Shown here piece by piece: positions 11,342 to 17,106 of a stretch of 64,000 nucleotides of DNA. Position numbers and translations under genes: made by a program. Every line of letters starts with the position of its first letter. The first letter of the stretch is position 1. The stretch is taken from assembly GCA_030446715.1 (NCBI GenBank), contig JAUJMU010000011.1:125503-189502 (forward strand). The letters run 5' to 3'. The notes below the pieces were generated by a model. That model was not told where the DNA came from. It searched no databases and saw nothing but the letters and a program-made list of their open reading frames with translations. This DNA is from Cytophagales bacterium (GTDB taxonomy: Bacteria; Bacteroidota; Bacteroidia; Cytophagales; 172606-1).

Positions 11342-11692
11342 TTAGTCTACGTGAGAAGGGGCATCTTTCTTACAGCATGCTTCCAGGGCATTATAAGCTT
11401 TAGCATCGGCCGGCAGCTCGTCGGCATCGTAGCCGCTCTTGTTAATGGCCTGTTTGATCTTGCTGATGTCCGTCTTTTTCGGGTTATAGACTACGGTTAT
11501 TACTTTGGATGGCACATCCAGATCAGAAACTTTTACACCTTTTTCGTACGCCAGATACTTCTCAATGGTTGCCTTGCACATTTTGCATACAGCCGAGGTT
11601 TTGATCTGTACTTTGGCTTCATTGCCGTTCTGTCCGAAGGAAGAAGTGAGTCCGGCCAAAAATAACGCGGTGATTGCAACTGCTTTTTTCAT
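11342..11692 (-). CDS. exported heavy-metal-associated (HMA) domain protein
   Basis: A 116-aa protein with a signal peptide (about residues 1-20, cut near SSFGQ) and one HMA ferredoxin-like domain. The metal-binding CKMC motif is at Cys36 and Cys39 (TSAVCKMCKATIEKYL), as in copper chaperones. It has an extra Cys-Cys pair at 106-107 near the C-terminus, absent from the minimal domain. It is the third gene of a minus-strand group with the TonB receptor and the Cys-rich HYC_CC_PP-type protein. A periplasmic copper or other soft-metal carrier role is inferred from the motif and the neighbours; the metal itself cannot be read from the sequence. Confidence 0.85.
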   Translation of the reverse strand: MKKAVAITALFLAGLTSSFGQNGNEAKVQIKTSAVCKMCKATIEKYLAYEKGVKVSDLDVPSKVITVVYNPKKTDISKIKQAINKSGYDADELPADAKAYNALEACCKKDAPSHVD

Positions 11693-11717
11693 GATTTTCT
11701 AAAAGTTATTTGATTAG

Positions 11718-11763
11718 TTCTCAATTCTCAATTCTCAATTCTCAATTCTCAATTCTCAATTCT
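11718..11763. repeat. heptanucleotide tandem repeat, about 6.5 copies
   Basis: Nearly perfect tandem copies of TTCTCAA. The tract fills the gap between the HMA gene start and the TonB-receptor stop and overlaps the first bases of the stop codon at 11762-11764. As the most regular member of the tract family it is the most likely to vary in copy number. Confidence 0.9.
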
Positions 11764-14047
11764 ATTTTATCCTGAACCGCATACCGGCGTAAATCATCCG
11801 GCCGTACACGGGTCCCCAGATCAAAGATGCATCAAAGTCCGGGCCAAAGGGCTGATCAGCGCCAATGATGGGATCGGGCTGGCGGAAATTCCCCAGGTTC
11901 TCGCCTCCCAGGTATACGTCCCACTTGCGGAAGGACCGGGTGATCTGCGCATTCATAAGTGCATAGTTGGGCGAAAAGGTGTCCGGCCGATTACCGCCTG
12001 CATCGGTGAACTTGCCCGGTATCCGCCTGGCACCGATCAGTTGGGTGGTGAAGTCAAACTTCCACTTGTCGAATTTGGTTGCGTAACCCACGTTGAAAAG
12101 CAGCCGGTGGCGACTCACGAAAGGACGGCGGATCAACTCGTCACCGATGGTGGTCCGCACGTCGTAAAATTTATAAGCAGCCTTTACATCCATTCGCTTT
12201 ACCGGCTGAAACTGCACTTCTGCCTGAGCACTGTTGGCAAATGATTTTCCGTTCAGGTTATAAAAGAAAATCTTGCCGGGGTCAGTGTCCATATCCATCA
12301 CCAGCTGATTGGTGAAGTCAGTGCGGTAAAAGTCAAGGCTGACGGCGGCATTCCTACCCAAAGCAGTAAAGTCGTGCGTCAGGCTGGCACCGTAGTTCCA
12401 CGCCCTTTCCGGCAATAGATTACCATTCACCACCAGTTGCCGCGAACTGACCAGCACCGGCGTATTTTCGGCAATGGGATTAGGCACCCGGAAACCGCTG
12501 CCGGCTGAAGCCCGCAGAGCAGTAGTGGGGGTAAGGTTGTACTTCAGGTGCAGGCGCGGCGTCACGAATGGGCCGTACAGGTTATGAAAATCGGCCCGTA
12601 AGCCAGCTACTGCCGTAAACTTCTCCCCGGAAGTCCATGTGTATTCGCCGAAAACGCCGGGTACTGATTCTGTGCGGGCAAAGGCTGAGTCACGGTAAGC
12701 CTCCTGGTAATCGTCGAGCAGGTAGCTGGCTCCCATCTTGATGCCGTGATTGGTGGTACCAATGATGGACTGGTAAATCAGATTTGCGTACAAAGTACGC
12801 TGCCGGCCCCGGTAAGTATTCAGGCCGAAAAAAGCATCCTGTTCGTGATTGACCACAGAAGTCACAAGACCTATACCCTTGTAGGGAGTCTGCGGAAAAA
12901 TAATACCGGTTTTAGAAAAGGCTTCCACCCGGCGGACAGTACTGCCCGTGCCGTACACGTGCATGGTTTTTTCCACGGGCATTTCGTGGCCCATTGACGG
13001 GTCGTATTCCATCACAATTTCGGTGTGCCGCATTGACTGGTCATAAAAGGCCATTTGCCCGCCCCGGCGGTTCTCGTACAGGGCTTTTACGCCAAACTGC
13101 GCCTTCAGCCGGTCACCGTCGTATTTCCAGCGGTTGATGCCGTTGTACTGGGTAAACATGGGCGTATCCAGAAATCCGTCGTTGTTGCGGTCCATACGGC
13201 CCAGTTCATCACCAAGGCGGCTCGAATGCAGCAGGAAGCCGGTACTCCACCGCTTGTTCAGCTTATGCGCTGAATTGAGGTTGATCTCGGCCCGGCCCAT
13301 GTCGTTGAGGTAAGCGTTCAGGTACAGTTTCTCACTGTCCTCGGGCTTCTGCAACTCCACGTTGATCTGCCCGGTGATGGATTCATAGCCGTTCACGACC
13401 GAACCGGCTCCCTTGCCCACGTCAATGGAGGATACCCAGGTGCCCGGTGTGTAGTTCAGGCCGTAGACGGTGGAAAGGCCCCGGATAGAAGGTACATTCT
13501 CGGAATTGATCTGTACATACGTGCCGTCCAGGCCCAGCATCTGAATCTGTTTGGCTCCCGTAACAGCGTCGCTGTAGGAAACATCCACGGAAGCGTTGGT
13601 TTCAAAGCTCTCCGACAGGTTGCAGCAGGCGGCCTTCTGGAGTTCCTTAGCCGTAATGGTTTCGGTTTTCATCGGGTCAACGGCCGAGATGCGGCTACCG
13701 AAGGAACGGGACTCTACGACCACTTCCGCCAAAGTAGTGTTGGACTGCAGCACTATTTCAATTGTGGTCTGGCCGTGTATGTGAATGGTATCAGTTTTAT
13801 AGCCCACAAAACTGATGAGCAGGGGCGTATGCTGGTCTTGCGGTTGAAGGAGACTGAACTTGCCTTCTCCATCGGAAGTAGTGCCTTGGGTGGTGCCCAG
13901 CCAATAAATGCTGGCACCCGGCAGCGGGTCTTTCTGTCCGGCGCTGCTGCCATCCCGGACAATTCCCGAAATGGTCTGGGCGGTGGTGGTCAGGTGAAAG
14001 GTAACCAGCAGCAAAAATGCTGTCAAGGCAACTGGTTTGGATTTCAT
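11762..14047 (-). CDS. TonB-dependent outer-membrane receptor, probable metal transport
   Basis: A 761-aa receptor when started at the ATG at 14045-14047 (MKSKPVALTAFLLL, signal peptide ending near TTTAQ); an upstream in-frame extension to 14122 lacks signal character. Order of parts: signal, carboxypeptidase-like beta domain (ISGIVRDGSS to LQSNTT), TonB-box-like link, plug domain with a Cys-Cys pair at residues 141-142 (ELQKAACCNLSESF), then a 22-strand-type barrel ending in the aromatic-terminated FRIK. The plug segment KQIQMLGLDGTYVQINSENV is typical of the receptor type found next to HMA proteins in Bacteroidota. With its neighbours it probably moves copper or a similar metal across the outer membrane; the substrate is inferred. 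Confidence 0.87.
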   Translation of the reverse strand: MKSKPVALTAFLLLVTFHLTTTAQTISGIVRDGSSAGQKDPLPGASIYWLGTTQGTTSDGEGKFSLLQPQDQHTPLLISFVGYKTDTIHIHGQTTIEIVLQSNTTLAEVVVESRSFGSRISAVDPMKTETITAKELQKAACCNLSESFETNASVDVSYSDAVTGAKQIQMLGLDGTYVQINSENVPSIRGLSTVYGLNYTPGTWVSSIDVGKGAGSVVNGYESITGQINVELQKPEDSEKLYLNAYLNDMGRAEINLNSAHKLNKRWSTGFLLHSSRLGDELGRMDRNNDGFLDTPMFTQYNGINRWKYDGDRLKAQFGVKALYENRRGGQMAFYDQSMRHTEIVMEYDPSMGHEMPVEKTMHVYGTGSTVRRVEAFSKTGIIFPQTPYKGIGLVTSVVNHEQDAFFGLNTYRGRQRTLYANLIYQSIIGTTNHGIKMGASYLLDDYQEAYRDSAFARTESVPGVFGEYTWTSGEKFTAVAGLRADFHNLYGPFVTPRLHLKYNLTPTTALRASAGSGFRVPNPIAENTPVLVSSRQLVVNGNLLPERAWNYGASLTHDFTALGRNAAVSLDFYRTDFTNQLVMDMDTDPGKIFFYNLNGKSFANSAQAEVQFQPVKRMDVKAAYKFYDVRTTIGDELIRRPFVSRHRLLFNVGYATKFDKWKFDFTTQLIGARRIPGKFTDAGGNRPDTFSPNYALMNAQITRSFRKWDVYLGGENLGNFRQPDPIIGADQPFGPDFDASLIWGPVYGRMIYAGMRFRIK

Positions 14048-14155
14048 AAAGTTTTTAGCGGAATAGATTACACATAGGTGACTGCCTCTGAGGAAGACAG
14101 CAAAAGCTACCCCACTATGCACAAAAGCAAAGCAGGCGGCAAGTGTAATGATCCG

Positions 14156-14581
14156 CTAAACGACGAGGGTGCAATGTTTGGTCAGCAGGGTACGACCGGC
14201 GACCGGGGGCGAAGAATTGGTGTAGGAACAGGCAGTTTCGCTCTTTTCAATGAGCAGATTGAAAACATTCACCAACTTTTCCGCTACAAAAAAGCAGAAG
14301 CTGGAAAAAACCTTGGAAAGCTTCTCCTGGATGGAAACGAAATCAACCTGAATGTAATGGGTATTTACTTCGCAGCAGTTATCTGCTTTTACGGTGGCCG
14401 CTCCGGCGGGAATAACAGCCTGAGTTGACTTTTTAGAGCAGCAGCTCTTTTGAGAATGGGCAGACAGTGATTTTTTGCCGCTCATCAGACAAGTGTGTTC
14501 CACAAAGCCCATACCGGTGTTGAGGGTGATAATCACCCCAAGCATCAGAAATGCGAATATGCGGGAACGAACTGCCTTCAT
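14156..14581 (-). CDS. HYC_CC_PP-type small Cys-rich membrane protein
   Basis: A 141-aa protein from the ATG at 14579-14581; a TTG three codons upstream is less likely. One N-terminal hydrophobic segment (residues 8-25), then a His/Cys motif (EHTC, His29 and Cys31), Cys-Cys pairs at 47-48 and 69-70, a second hydrophobic stretch near 92-111, and Pro-Pro at 125-126 before a C-terminal HCTLVV. This order matches the Bacteroidota family named for its HYC, CC and PP motifs, which is often found beside TonB receptors. The paired cysteines suggest soft-metal binding. It is 108 bp upstream of the receptor gene, on the same strand, and just downstream of crtB. Confidence 0.72.
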   Translation of the reverse strand: MKAVRSRIFAFLMLGVIITLNTGMGFVEHTCLMSGKKSLSAHSQKSCCSKKSTQAVIPAGAATVKADNCCEVNTHYIQVDFVSIQEKLSKVFSSFCFFVAEKLVNVFNLLIEKSETACSYTNSSPPVAGRTLLTKHCTLVV

Positions 14582-14630: not shown

Positions 14631-15464
14631 CTATAAATAGTTCATTTTGTGCTGAAAGTATGTCTGCACCAGCAACGCCATCTTCTGATTGTCCGGCACG
14701 CGGATGCGTTCGTGCAGTATCCGGGAGGGCGGCATCTTCTTGATTTTCCGGAACAGGGTTTTGTAGTAGAGGTACGCCAGGTATACGCCCCATTTAGCCC
14801 CCTGCGGCAACCGGATGATCCCTTCGTAAGCGGCATCAAAATCGGCCTGAATGTAGGCTTCAATCTCCGCTTTGGCTGATTCGGTGAAGGATCCGAAGTT
14901 GACGCCGGGAAAATACACGCGTCCCCGTTCGTGGTAGTCGCTGCGGATGTCGCGCAGGAAATTTACTTTCTGAAAAGCGGCTCCCAACCGGCGGGCCGGT
15001 TCTTTCAGGTCGTCGTACATCTGCTTGTTGCCCTCGCAGAATATCCGCAGGCACATTAGTCCTACCACTTCGGCCGAGCCGTAGATGTATTCGGCGTACC
15101 CTTCCTGGTTATATTCCTGCTGGTGGAGGTCCATCTCCATGCTGTTGAGGAAAGCGTCAATCAGGTGCTGGTCAATGTGGTATTTGTTCACGATCAGCTG
15201 GAAGGAGTGGAGGACGGGATTCAGGCTGATCCGGTCGCGGATGGCCTTGTACGTGTCCTGCCGGAATCCGCTGAGCAGATCTGCTTTGTTATAAGCGTGG
15301 AAAGTATCTACGATCTCATCGGCATAGCGCACAAAGCCGTAGATGGCGTAAATGGGCAGGCGGTACCGGGCGTCGAGGGTTTTGATGCCCAGCGTAAACG
15401 AGGTACTGTAATGCTGGGTGATGAGCCGGCTGCATTTCAGCGTGGTTTCGTCAAATAACTCCAT
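14631..15464 (-). CDS. crtB: phytoene synthase
   Basis: A predicted 277-aa squalene/phytoene synthase from the ATG at 15462-15464 (MELFDETTLK); an upstream start at 15503 adds 13 unlikely residues. It joins two geranylgeranyl diphosphates into phytoene. Both Asp-rich motifs are present: DEIVD and, about 120 residues later, NFLRDIRSD, each binding Mg-diphosphate. The family signature YGFVRYADEIVD and the RVYFPG segment are also clear. The gene lies 166 bp downstream of crtI on the same strand, and the pair implies carotenoid production in the membrane. No cyclase or hydroxylase gene is visible here. Confidence 0.94.
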   Translation of the reverse strand: MELFDETTLKCSRLITQHYSTSFTLGIKTLDARYRLPIYAIYGFVRYADEIVDTFHAYNKADLLSGFRQDTYKAIRDRISLNPVLHSFQLIVNKYHIDQHLIDAFLNSMEMDLHQQEYNQEGYAEYIYGSAEVVGLMCLRIFCEGNKQMYDDLKEPARRLGAAFQKVNFLRDIRSDYHERGRVYFPGVNFGSFTESAKAEIEAYIQADFDAAYEGIIRLPQGAKWGVYLAYLYYKTLFRKIKKMPPSRILHERIRVPDNQKMALLVQTYFQHKMNYL

Positions 15465-15630
15465 AATCAGATAGTGATGGCCGCTGGTCTGGTTAACACA
15501 CAAGGTAGAGATTTTTCACAAAGAATTCAGCTGGCGACAGGCAAAATCAGCTGGCAGAAAGCTTTCCAGAGGTATCTATAACCAAATGAGAGGCAAATTG
15601 TTATTGTACACTTATTTTCACTGACCCGAA

Positions 15631-17106
15631 TCAACTGAATTCCTTTGCGATTTCCTTCGCGACCACCTGCCCCGAAATCAGGGAGGGCGGTACGCCGGGT
15701 CCCGGCACTGTCAGCTGGCCGGTGTAGTACAGGTTATCCACTTTCCTGCTTTTCAGCGAAGGTTTCAATAATGCCGTTTGCATCAGCGTATTGGCCAGCC
15801 CGTAAGCATTGCCCTTGAAAGCGTGGTAATCGGCTTTGAAGTCGCGGTGCGCGTAGCTGCGCTTAAATACCACAGCGTCCCGGATGCTCTGGCCGGTCAG
15901 CTTCTCCAGCCGGTCCATTACCAGGTGGTAATACCTCTCGCGAAACTCCTCCGTATCTTCCAGGTCCGGCGCCAGCGGAATCAGGACGAACAGGTTTTCG
16001 CAGCCGTCCGGCGCCACGCCGGGGTCCGTCTGCGACGGGGCCGATACGTAAAACAGGGGCTTGGTGGGCCATTTGGGCGTCTGGTATATTTCTTTGGCGT
16101 GCAGCCCGAAATCCGCGTCAAAAAACAGGTTGTGATGCCGCAGCCGCTTCAGCTTTTTGTTGATGCCGAGGTAAAACAGCAGCGAAGACGGTGCCATTAC
16201 CCGTTTGTTCCAGTAGTCATCAGAGTAGCTGCGGCTTTCGGTGCCCAGCAACTGACTTTCCACGTGCTGGTAATCGGCTCCGGCCACGACGATGTCTGCT
16301 TCGTAAGTGTGGCCGGCGGTAATCACTTTCCGGGCTTTTCCGCCGGTGATCTCTATCTTCTGTACTTCCTGATTATACCGGAAGGTTACGCCTTTCTCTT
16401 CGGCCAGCTTGGCCATACCCTCCACTATTTTGTGCATCCCGCCCATCGGGTACCAAGTGCCCAGTTGGATATCCGCGTAATTCATGAGGCTGTACAGGGC
16501 CGGCGTATTCTGCGGCACCGCCCCCAGAAAGAGAATCGGGAACTCCATCAGCTGCAAGATCTTTTCATTCCGGAAAAAGCGCCGCACGTGGGTGTGAAAC
16601 GACTGGAAAATATCCATCCGGAGGGCACTGATCAGTATCCGCGGGTCAATGAACTCTGTAACCGACCGGCTGGGCTTGTGCACAAATTCATTGATACCTA
16701 CCTGATACTTGTACGCCGCCTGTTTCAGGAACGCATCGAGTTGCCGGCTGCTGCCCGGCTCCAGCGATTCAAACAGGGCATGAAATTTTTCCATCCGGGC
16801 CGGGAGGTCCATAAAATCATCTTCGCCGAATATGACCGTGTAGGATGGATCAAGCCGCACGAGTTTGTAATAATCGGATGGATGCTTGCCGAACCGGGCA
16901 AAGTAGGCTTCAAAAACATCGGGCATCCAGTACCAGCTGGGACCCATGTCAAACACGAAACCTTTTTCGGAGAATTGCCGGGCCCTGCCACCGGGGGAAT
17001 CATTTTTTTCCAGCACCGTAACCTCAAAGCCCTGACTGGCAAGGTTGGTAGCGGCGGATAAACCCGCAAATCCGGAACCGATTACTATGACTTTTTTACC
17101 GATCAC
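15631..17106 (-). CDS. crtI: phytoene desaturase
   Basis: A 491-aa FAD-dependent carotenoid desaturase that introduces double bases into phytoene to give coloured products such as lycopene. The dinucleotide-binding motif is at the N-terminus (VIVIGSGFAGLSAATNLASQ, residues 6-25), followed by VLEKNDSPGGRARQF and the CrtI hallmark FDMGPSWYWMPDVFE. The C-terminal signature (NLYYTGQLTVPGPGVPPSLISG) is intact. Length is normal. It sits downstream of the sigma-factor gene, from which it is separated by a hairpin terminator, and upstream of crtB, as in many carotenoid loci of Bacteroidota. Confidence 0.95.
   Translation of the reverse strand: MIGKKVIVIGSGFAGLSAATNLASQGFEVTVLEKNDSPGGRARQFSEKGFVFDMGPSWYWMPDVFEAYFARFGKHPSDYYKLVRLDPSYTVIFGEDDFMDLPARMEKFHALFESLEPGSSRQLDAFLKQAAYKYQVGINEFVHKPSRSVTEFIDPRILISALRMDIFQSFHTHVRRFFRNEKILQLMEFPILFLGAVPQNTPALYSLMNYADIQLGTWYPMGGMHKIVEGMAKLAEEKGVTFRYNQEVQKIEITGGKARKVITAGHTYEADIVVAGADYQHVESQLLGTESRSYSDDYWNKRVMAPSSLLFYLGINKKLKRLRHHNLFFDADFGLHAKEIYQTPKWPTKPLFYVSAPSQTDPGVAPDGCENLFVLIPLAPDLEDTEEFRERYYHLVMDRLEKLTGQSIRDAVVFKRSYAHRDFKADYHAFKGNAYGLANTLMQTALLKPSLKSRKVDNLYYTGQLTVPGPGVPPSLISGQVVAKEIAKEFS

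Follow-up and report, generated by a model that had tools for sequence, protein, structure and literature searches.

Linked thiol-site proteins in Bacteroidota: a TonB-dependent transporter, an exported HMA protein and a HYC_CC_PP-like protein as a candidate soft-metal relay

Three consecutive minus-strand genes at positions 14581-11342 of a 64,000-nucleotide stretch of a Cytophagales genome (contig JAUJMU010000011.1, positions 125,503 to 189,502; the whole stretch is called the window below) code for a HYC_CC_PP-like protein, a TonB-dependent transporter (TBDT) and an exported HMA protein. The genes form a putative operon, with intergenic gaps of 108 bp between the HYC-like and TBDT genes and 69 bp between the TBDT and HMA genes. 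Each protein carries vicinal cysteines at the residues at which the sequence-only reading of the window had placed them. The pairs are conserved, the genes are linked across Bacteroidota, and in five genomes the HMA protein is fused to the receptor. A relay in the sense of an association of linked thiol-site proteins appears well supported by these sequences. The more specific proposal, that the operon encodes a thiol relay by which a soft metal crosses the outer membrane, Cu(I) being the likeliest one, has in our estimate about an even chance of being correct.

The receptor and the cysteine pair of its plug

The TBDT gene (positions 11762-14047, minus strand) codes for 761 residues with a signal sequence recognized by eye, a CarboxypepD_reg-like domain, a plug and a barrel; Pfam reports CarbopepD_reg_2, Plug and barrel, with plug and barrel above their cut-offs. 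The sole cysteines of the protein are the vicinal pair 141-142 of the plug (codons 13622-13627). Relatives were collected by a peptide-pattern search with the window TBDT, from which the best 80 of 128 loci were taken, their record titles being taken as Bacteroidota. None of the patterns contained the CC. The pair is present in the window protein and in 79 of the 80 relatives, the frame read for the last one (L082) being without that stretch. Since the pattern set is biased toward this TBDT subfamily, 198 genomes sampled evenly across Bacteroidota were searched with the TBDT profile A1. In at least 50 of them, counting the source genome of the window, there is a TBDT ortholog (at least 539 bits, the next matches lying at about 411 bits); this count is a lower bound, five first-look candidates having been scored per genome. 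The plug CC is kept in all 50 orthologs, one of which (G146) has its gene split in two pieces, and in the alignment it occupies the identical column in all 49 ortholog rows other than that of the window. Cysteine is so rare in these TBDTs (0.39% of residues) that a fixed plug CC is not attributable to chance. Conservation of the CC had been chosen beforehand as the point on which the relay proposal could fail, and the proposal withstood it.

The predicted model of the TBDT (m18e027718644) has a mean predicted local distance difference test score (pLDDT) of 84.8, falling to values of 77 to 68 around the plug CC, which sits in the turn joining two short plug helices, 133-138 and 144-150. Fold matches of the model include BtuB (Z 34.1) and OprC (6z8q; Z 29.7, root-mean-square deviation 3.1, 547 aligned residues). 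The fold alone does not indicate the metal, because structures of OprC, ZnuD and FyuA all appear in the match list, among many others. In the HMMER alignment the CC stands opposite V40-Q41 of Cir. The stretch that holds it presumably precedes, in TBDT plugs, the strand rising to the outer apical loop, so that the pair would lie low in the plug, toward the periplasm. It follows a presumed Ton box, recognized by eye near residue 108, by about 30 residues. The MGHEM loop of the window TBDT (residues 352-356) was considered as a conserved copper site and discarded, the insertion being found only in the window and L009 among 81 rows. Note that L010 has an MGHYM variant of this clade-specific MxHxM insertion, whose motif resembles a copper ligand motif.

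A sister TBDT family accounts for 42 places in the phylum draw (320-412 bits). The CC is found at the ortholog column in 0 of the 25 members read out of these 42, all 25 of which have a plug CxxC whose cysteines lie 19 and 22 residues beyond the CC position; cysteine occurs there in 0 of 49 orthologs. The sister CxxC is aligned to the PirA loop that precedes the IRG strand; we take this loop to be the outer apical one. The two related TBDT families look as if each had fixed a thiol pair, on seemingly opposite faces of the plug. Sister family members are found in the source genome itself (G000:C10:256836-258995, which is L129:6699-9011) and at L130, L152-L158 and L182-L197. Among the loci scanned, the three with hits (L129, L153, L182) have redoxin or thioredoxin-like proteins among the neighbours in their operons, one of them with a type IX secretion system (T9SS) tail.

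The HMA and HYC_CC_PP-like partners and their linkage to the receptor

The exported HMA protein (positions 11342-11692, minus strand; 116 residues, signal sequence by eye) matches PF00403 with 30.8 bits (cut-off 24.8). It features a CxxC at residues 36-39 (codons 11576-11587) and a C-terminal CC at 106-107 (codons 11372-11377). An HMA partner was found at 65 of the 80 pattern loci, many of which are on cut contigs. Together with the window this gives 66 rows, where the cysteines of the CxxC are present in 65 and 66 and those of the C-terminal CC in 60 and 58. The predicted model of the window protein (m94fd04a97b77, mean pLDDT 83.5) has MerP (1osd) and CopZ (6ff2) as nearest PDB structures, MerP 1osd being the top fold match by E-value.

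Five natural fusions carry the HMA domain on the amino terminus of the receptor. Two N-terminal HMA units each are found in L119 (887 residues) and L120 (890 residues), and one unit each in L121 (900 residues), L122 (860 residues) and L075 (861 residues). Every fused unit has a CxxC followed by a CC about 65 residues on, and the plug CC is kept in all five receptors; the six cysteines that L121 and L122 have in total are exactly the three pairs. Pfam, run on three of the fusions, gives HMA above the cut-off in L119 and L075 and does not report it in L122, where it was found by profile A3. No separate HMA gene is present in the operon chain of any of the five fusion loci. This fusion of genes that are otherwise neighbours is the best sequence evidence that the HMA protein and the receptor may act together.

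The linkage was quantified in the phylum draw by scoring neighbours within 6 kb of the TBDT (HMA at E<=1e-10, HYC at E<=1e-3). Among the 50 orthologs an HMA match is found in 35, a HYC match in 33, either one in 42 and both in 26, all on the same strand as the receptor. The 42 sister TBDT places have an HMA or HYC neighbour in no case, nor do 6 weaker places. The recurrence of the family combination in Bacteroidota, stated in the sequence-only reading, is thereby borne out. Several of the missing neighbours are misses of the profiles, as small Cys-rich or HMA-like open reading frames (ORFs) stand, by eye, in the right place. Gene order is variable, the HMA gene lying after or before that of the TBDT, and five genomes without an ortholog TBDT still hold the HMA-HYC pair. 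In Parabacteroides distasonis the set is located on a record of 68 kb given as a plasmid, and comprises a small CC-rich protein, a TBDT (AACCN) and an HMA protein with CxxC whose tail contains His and is without CC.

Some partners depart from the common HMA layout. HMA-like partners without CxxC (by eye; GVGCSAD, GVCCNGD) adjoin a CC-bearing receptor at L145, L146 and L273:5533-5892. HMA partners without the LxxCC motif and with His-rich or His-containing tails are found in Bacteroidales at L065, L067, L069 and L071, and likewise at L271:10293-10643. An HMA-MauE fusion inside the operon (L161:5276-6055) is a possible inner-membrane partner; this hint was set aside since the 15 other long HMA proteins have similar ends, and HMA-DUF3347 is the architecture of the 2 that were scanned.

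The HYC_CC_PP-like protein (positions 14156-14581, minus strand; 141 residues) has an N-terminal hydrophobic segment, His29 and Cys31, CC pairs at 47-48 (codons 14438-14443) and 69-70 (codons 14372-14377), a late PP, and further single cysteines at 96, 118 and 137. It shares gene position and the H-x-C/CC/CC/PP layout with NCBIfam HYC_CC_PP (NF047658), HTC standing for HYC and the layout being taken from the family name, but scores below the family cut-off (19.9 versus 28 bits). The family is matched at E<=0.01 by 27 of 40 aligned relatives in the same gene position, the L131 protein reaching 108.5 bits. In alignment A2, which comprises 40 chosen rows, C31, C47, C69 and C70 are invariant, H29 is conserved in at least 90% and C48 is not invariant. 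Pfam gave weak matches of single members only on these rows. The description of model NF047658 gives no function, and HYC_CC_PP is named in no paper found in the open-licence PubMed Central (PMC) literature. DUF2946, considered as kin of HYC_CC_PP, had no match in the source genome, the two profiles not having been compared.

Counts of promoters and terminators at the window locus are about those of shuffled sequence. Genes for a squalene/phytoene synthase and a CrtI-type desaturase (positions 14631-17106) are located directly upstream in the same orientation, 49 bp away from the HYC-like gene. ORFs of clusters c37 and c38, matched to the synthase and desaturase genes by length only, also precede the HYC gene at L009 and L010. 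A 7-bp tandem repeat, TTCTCAA (6.6 copies, positions 11718-11763), lies between the TBDT and HMA genes and is found at 4 further places in the source genome.

Genomic context and the candidate metal

Copper is the likely metal, judged from the context of related modules and from the L131 operon. Copper markers are motif matches unless named here as Pfam or NCBIfam hits. The L131 operon codes for HYC, AraC, a P1B ATPase, TBDT and HMA, and its ATPase passes the copper model TIGR01511 (577 versus a cut-off of 397 bits). A protein identified as HMBD by Pfam is present in the L163 neighbourhood. Near 8 of the 80 pattern loci, six of them from Dyadobacter, is a P1B ATPase with CPC and MALSS motifs, a combination that we take to be of the copper type; several of these loci also have CopZ-like and AraC-HMA genes. 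An AraC-type regulator with an HMA-like amino terminus is found in 18 of the 80 loci, the HMA part being below the Pfam cut-off in the one scanned.

The paralogous modules have a richer copper-type context. HYC genes outside TBDT operons have a Cus, P1B, HMBD, AraC-HMA or multicopper oxidase (MCO) marker within 6 kb in 26 of 42 places examined out of 50 counted (25 of 42 with stricter motifs). In the source genome, two HYC-like ORFs, one of them above the family cut-off, precede CusA-type, OEP and CusB-HMBD genes, and in G190 the HYC gene precedes AraC, multicopper oxidase and CusA genes. Long exported HMA-LxxCC proteins were chosen by frame length (283-326 residues; 15 proteins, L275-L288 and L291, from 11 genomes, several of one genus). 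A copper-type marker (MCO, P1B ATPase, HMBD or CusA) is present in the fetched stretch for 13 of the 15, L286 being without marker and L291 unclear. Pfam identified DUF3347 in 2 of 2 and multicopper oxidase in 4 of 4 of the loci scanned.

Two further features of copper-type loci were observed. The copper/heavy-metal efflux locus of the source genome (L125, G000:C13:58000-77000) also holds an AraC regulator, with an HMA-like amino terminus by eye, and a P1B ATPase. Its CusA-type pump consists of two consecutive ORFs (L125:6662-9932, 450+630 residues), as does that of L124:8336-11553 (428+644 residues); the pairs break at about the same place in the two genomes, which points to a gene that is split or to a frameshift common to both. 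In four flavobacteria (L083, L084, L085 and L088; Pfam on L083 only) the TBDT-HMA pair has as its neighbour a tyrosinase-type copper protein that bears a T9SS tail, or relatives from the same cluster.

The heme-copper oxidase subunit COX1 was tried as a marker of copper need and rejected. Although none of the 50 ortholog genomes is without it, 188 of the 198 genomes drawn have it too, and its presence in ortholog genomes is therefore uninformative. Its absence was followed in the 68 genomes behind the 80 pattern loci, with 12 loci unchecked; many are metagenome-assembled genomes, for which completeness is not given. Among genomes with an HMA partner, 41 of the 43 that have COX1 and 1 of the 10 that lack it show an LxxCC tail (Fisher p 1.2e-7). 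On the tree LxxCC changes only 4 times, with 2 independent pairs, and the association is not significant when kinship is allowed for; it is therefore a lead, no more.

The proposed relay, known systems and other explanations

TBDTs are importers as a class, and import is on this basis the probable direction. The exported HMA protein, and its fusion on the periplasmic amino terminus of the receptor, fit a receiver at the receptor exit. The following path may be proposed. The TBDT, energized by TonB, would import copper, free or as a chelate, as expected from its class, and the vicinal plug CC would hold the metal leaving the barrel. The exported HMA protein would receive it on its CxxC by thiol exchange, its C-terminal LPxCC serving as a second or bridging ligand, an exchange that can be likened to the transfer of Hg(II) from MerP to the CC of MerT. 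The HYC_CC_PP-like protein, small, Cys-rich and probably membrane-anchored, could accept the metal next, or serve as a buffer or a sensor. A fuller version, somewhat short of an even chance, is a self-contained Cu(I) thiol wire formed by a vicinal-Cys exit site in the plug, an own and sometimes tethered metallochaperone and a membrane-anchored Cys-rich acceptor, the sister family having moved the pair to the outer plug loop as CxxC.

Parts of this path have precedents. The TBDT fold and a plug thiol as presumed ligand are common to the TonB-dependent ionic copper importers OprC and NosA. The copper site of OprC is CxxxM-HxM and its copper ligand Cys143 lies about 70 residues after the Ton box, according to the accessible part of the source (PMC8610252), whereas the CC described here is about 30 residues after a Ton box assigned by eye. 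That part mentions no chaperone partner for OprC; here an HMA partner is present. A genome paper on the flavobacterium Bizionia proposes an OprC-like TBDT with CxxxM-HxM (PMC11213822). Few copper TBDTs have been described (PMC12914433). The same paper presents CrtA as a copper chelate TBDT of beta- and gamma-Proteobacteria without conserved Cys or Met and with mostly PepSY_TM partners. The receptor studied here is like CrtA in being a TBDT proposed for copper with an operon of its own. It differs by its invariant CC and its HYC and HMA partners, which set it apart from CrtA, PepSY_TM not having been searched for nor the CrtA pocket residues compared.

The closest precedent for the hand-over is that of MerP, whose CxxC passes Hg(II) to Cys24-Cys25 of MerT, from an HMA domain to a vicinal pair (PMC5715351). 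An exported HMA protein with CxxC and a vicinal CC on a membrane transporter are found in both systems, but MerP-MerT acts at the inner membrane and the present set would act at the outer one, and the HMA protein here has its own C-terminal CC. The window HMA protein reaches 27.5 bits with the MerP model TIGR02052, below its equivalog cut-off of 92.55. CopZ likewise shares the HMA fold and the CxxC, and differs in that the HMA protein here is exported (signal by eye) and has the C-terminal CC; the window protein is below the cut-off of each CopZ NCBIfam model listed (at best 36.1 versus 91 bits). No paper on the three-gene set was found in the open-licence PMC literature, in agreement with the sequence-only reading, which took the pathway to be undescribed.

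A number of observations weigh against a copper relay. An HMA match is missing near 15 of the 50 orthologs, the C-terminal CC is absent in 6 to 8 of the 66 HMA rows, and at L145 and L146 the HMA-like partner (by eye) lacks CxxC though the TBDT keeps its CC. The periplasm-side placing of the plug CC is derived from topology. The OprC-type copper motif is absent, with CxxxM in 0 and HxM in 11 of 49 orthologs. The ATPase of L131 scores above the cadmium-family cut-off as well (TIGR01512, 414 versus 313.5 bits) and is below the cut-off of the E. coli-type CopA equivalog. A copper marker is within 6 kb in only 2 of 49 ortholog neighbourhoods (L131 and L163; motif scan), so the assignment of copper rests largely on the paralogous modules; such markers are found in 0 of 25 sister TBDT neighbourhoods. 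COX1, present in 55 of the 68 genomes, is missing in 13, namely in 10 of 22 genomes mostly titled Bacteroidales and in 3 of 46 others with the set, which indicates that the set does not generally serve to supply copper for respiration. Finally, 9 of the 10 COX1-less genomes with an HMA partner lack LxxCC. The suggestion of the sequence-only reading that a soft metal passes through shared CC sites is thus upheld as far as conserved cysteine sites, linkage and fusions are concerned, and copper, its first guess, is still the likeliest metal by context, while a role for copper in all lineages may be an oversimplification in view of the 13 genomes without the oxidase subunit and the lack of LxxCC in most of those among them that have an HMA partner.

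The same context could be read as one of copper tolerance, in which a copper-induced set sequesters or reroutes Cu(I) in the periplasm, the TBDT removes or recycles copper chelates, and HYC and HMA buffer together with Cus and CopA. HYC and HMA-LxxCC modules indeed stand beside Cus, CopA-type and MCO genes, the L131 operon holds a copper ATPase and AraC, and Dyadobacter-type loci have the operon beside CopZ-like, P1B ATPase and AraC-HMA genes. On a Haliscomenobacter plasmid about 3.6 kb separate the TBDT from a CusA/CzcA gene, and the set is kept in genomes without COX1. This explanation is nevertheless considered unlikely, 47 of 49 ortholog neighbourhoods lacking these markers in the 6 kb covered by the motif scan and TBDTs being importers as a class. 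Rather less probable again is that the metal is another one or differs by clade, for example Cu where the lineage respires and Zn, Ni or Co where it ferments and its HMA proteins have His-rich tails. The distribution of LxxCC between COX1-positive and COX1-negative genomes, the tails of L065, L067, L069 and L071, the His-containing tail without CC in P. distasonis and the cadmium-family score of the L131 ATPase all point that way. They are countered by the few changes of LxxCC on the tree, which leave its distribution not significant given kinship, and by the plug CC, kept in every ortholog read. Improbable, finally, is a role of the Cys pairs as redox sites, that is, vicinal disulfides or a thiol relay gating the plug. 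Vicinal cysteines can form disulfides, some sister receptors adjoin redoxin or thioredoxin-like proteins, and an exported, Cys-containing protein, thioredoxin-like by eye, comes after the relatives at L051 and L053. The partner of the receptor studied here is, however, an HMA fold with CxxC, near MerP and CopZ and fused in five genomes, and not a thioredoxin.

To our knowledge, copper entry across the Gram-negative outer membrane and its receiver in the periplasm are poorly known. Under the preferred reading of a thiol relay, the conserved three-gene set would represent TonB-dependent metal uptake in a variant form, with a periplasmic chaperone of its own that is in some cases fused to the receptor. 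The set reaches the gut species P. distasonis, and about one in four of the Bacteroidota genomes sampled (at least 50 of 198) codes for the receptor. A receptor with a fused chaperone would, if this is true, show the exit step directly, and the fusions make the idea easy to test.

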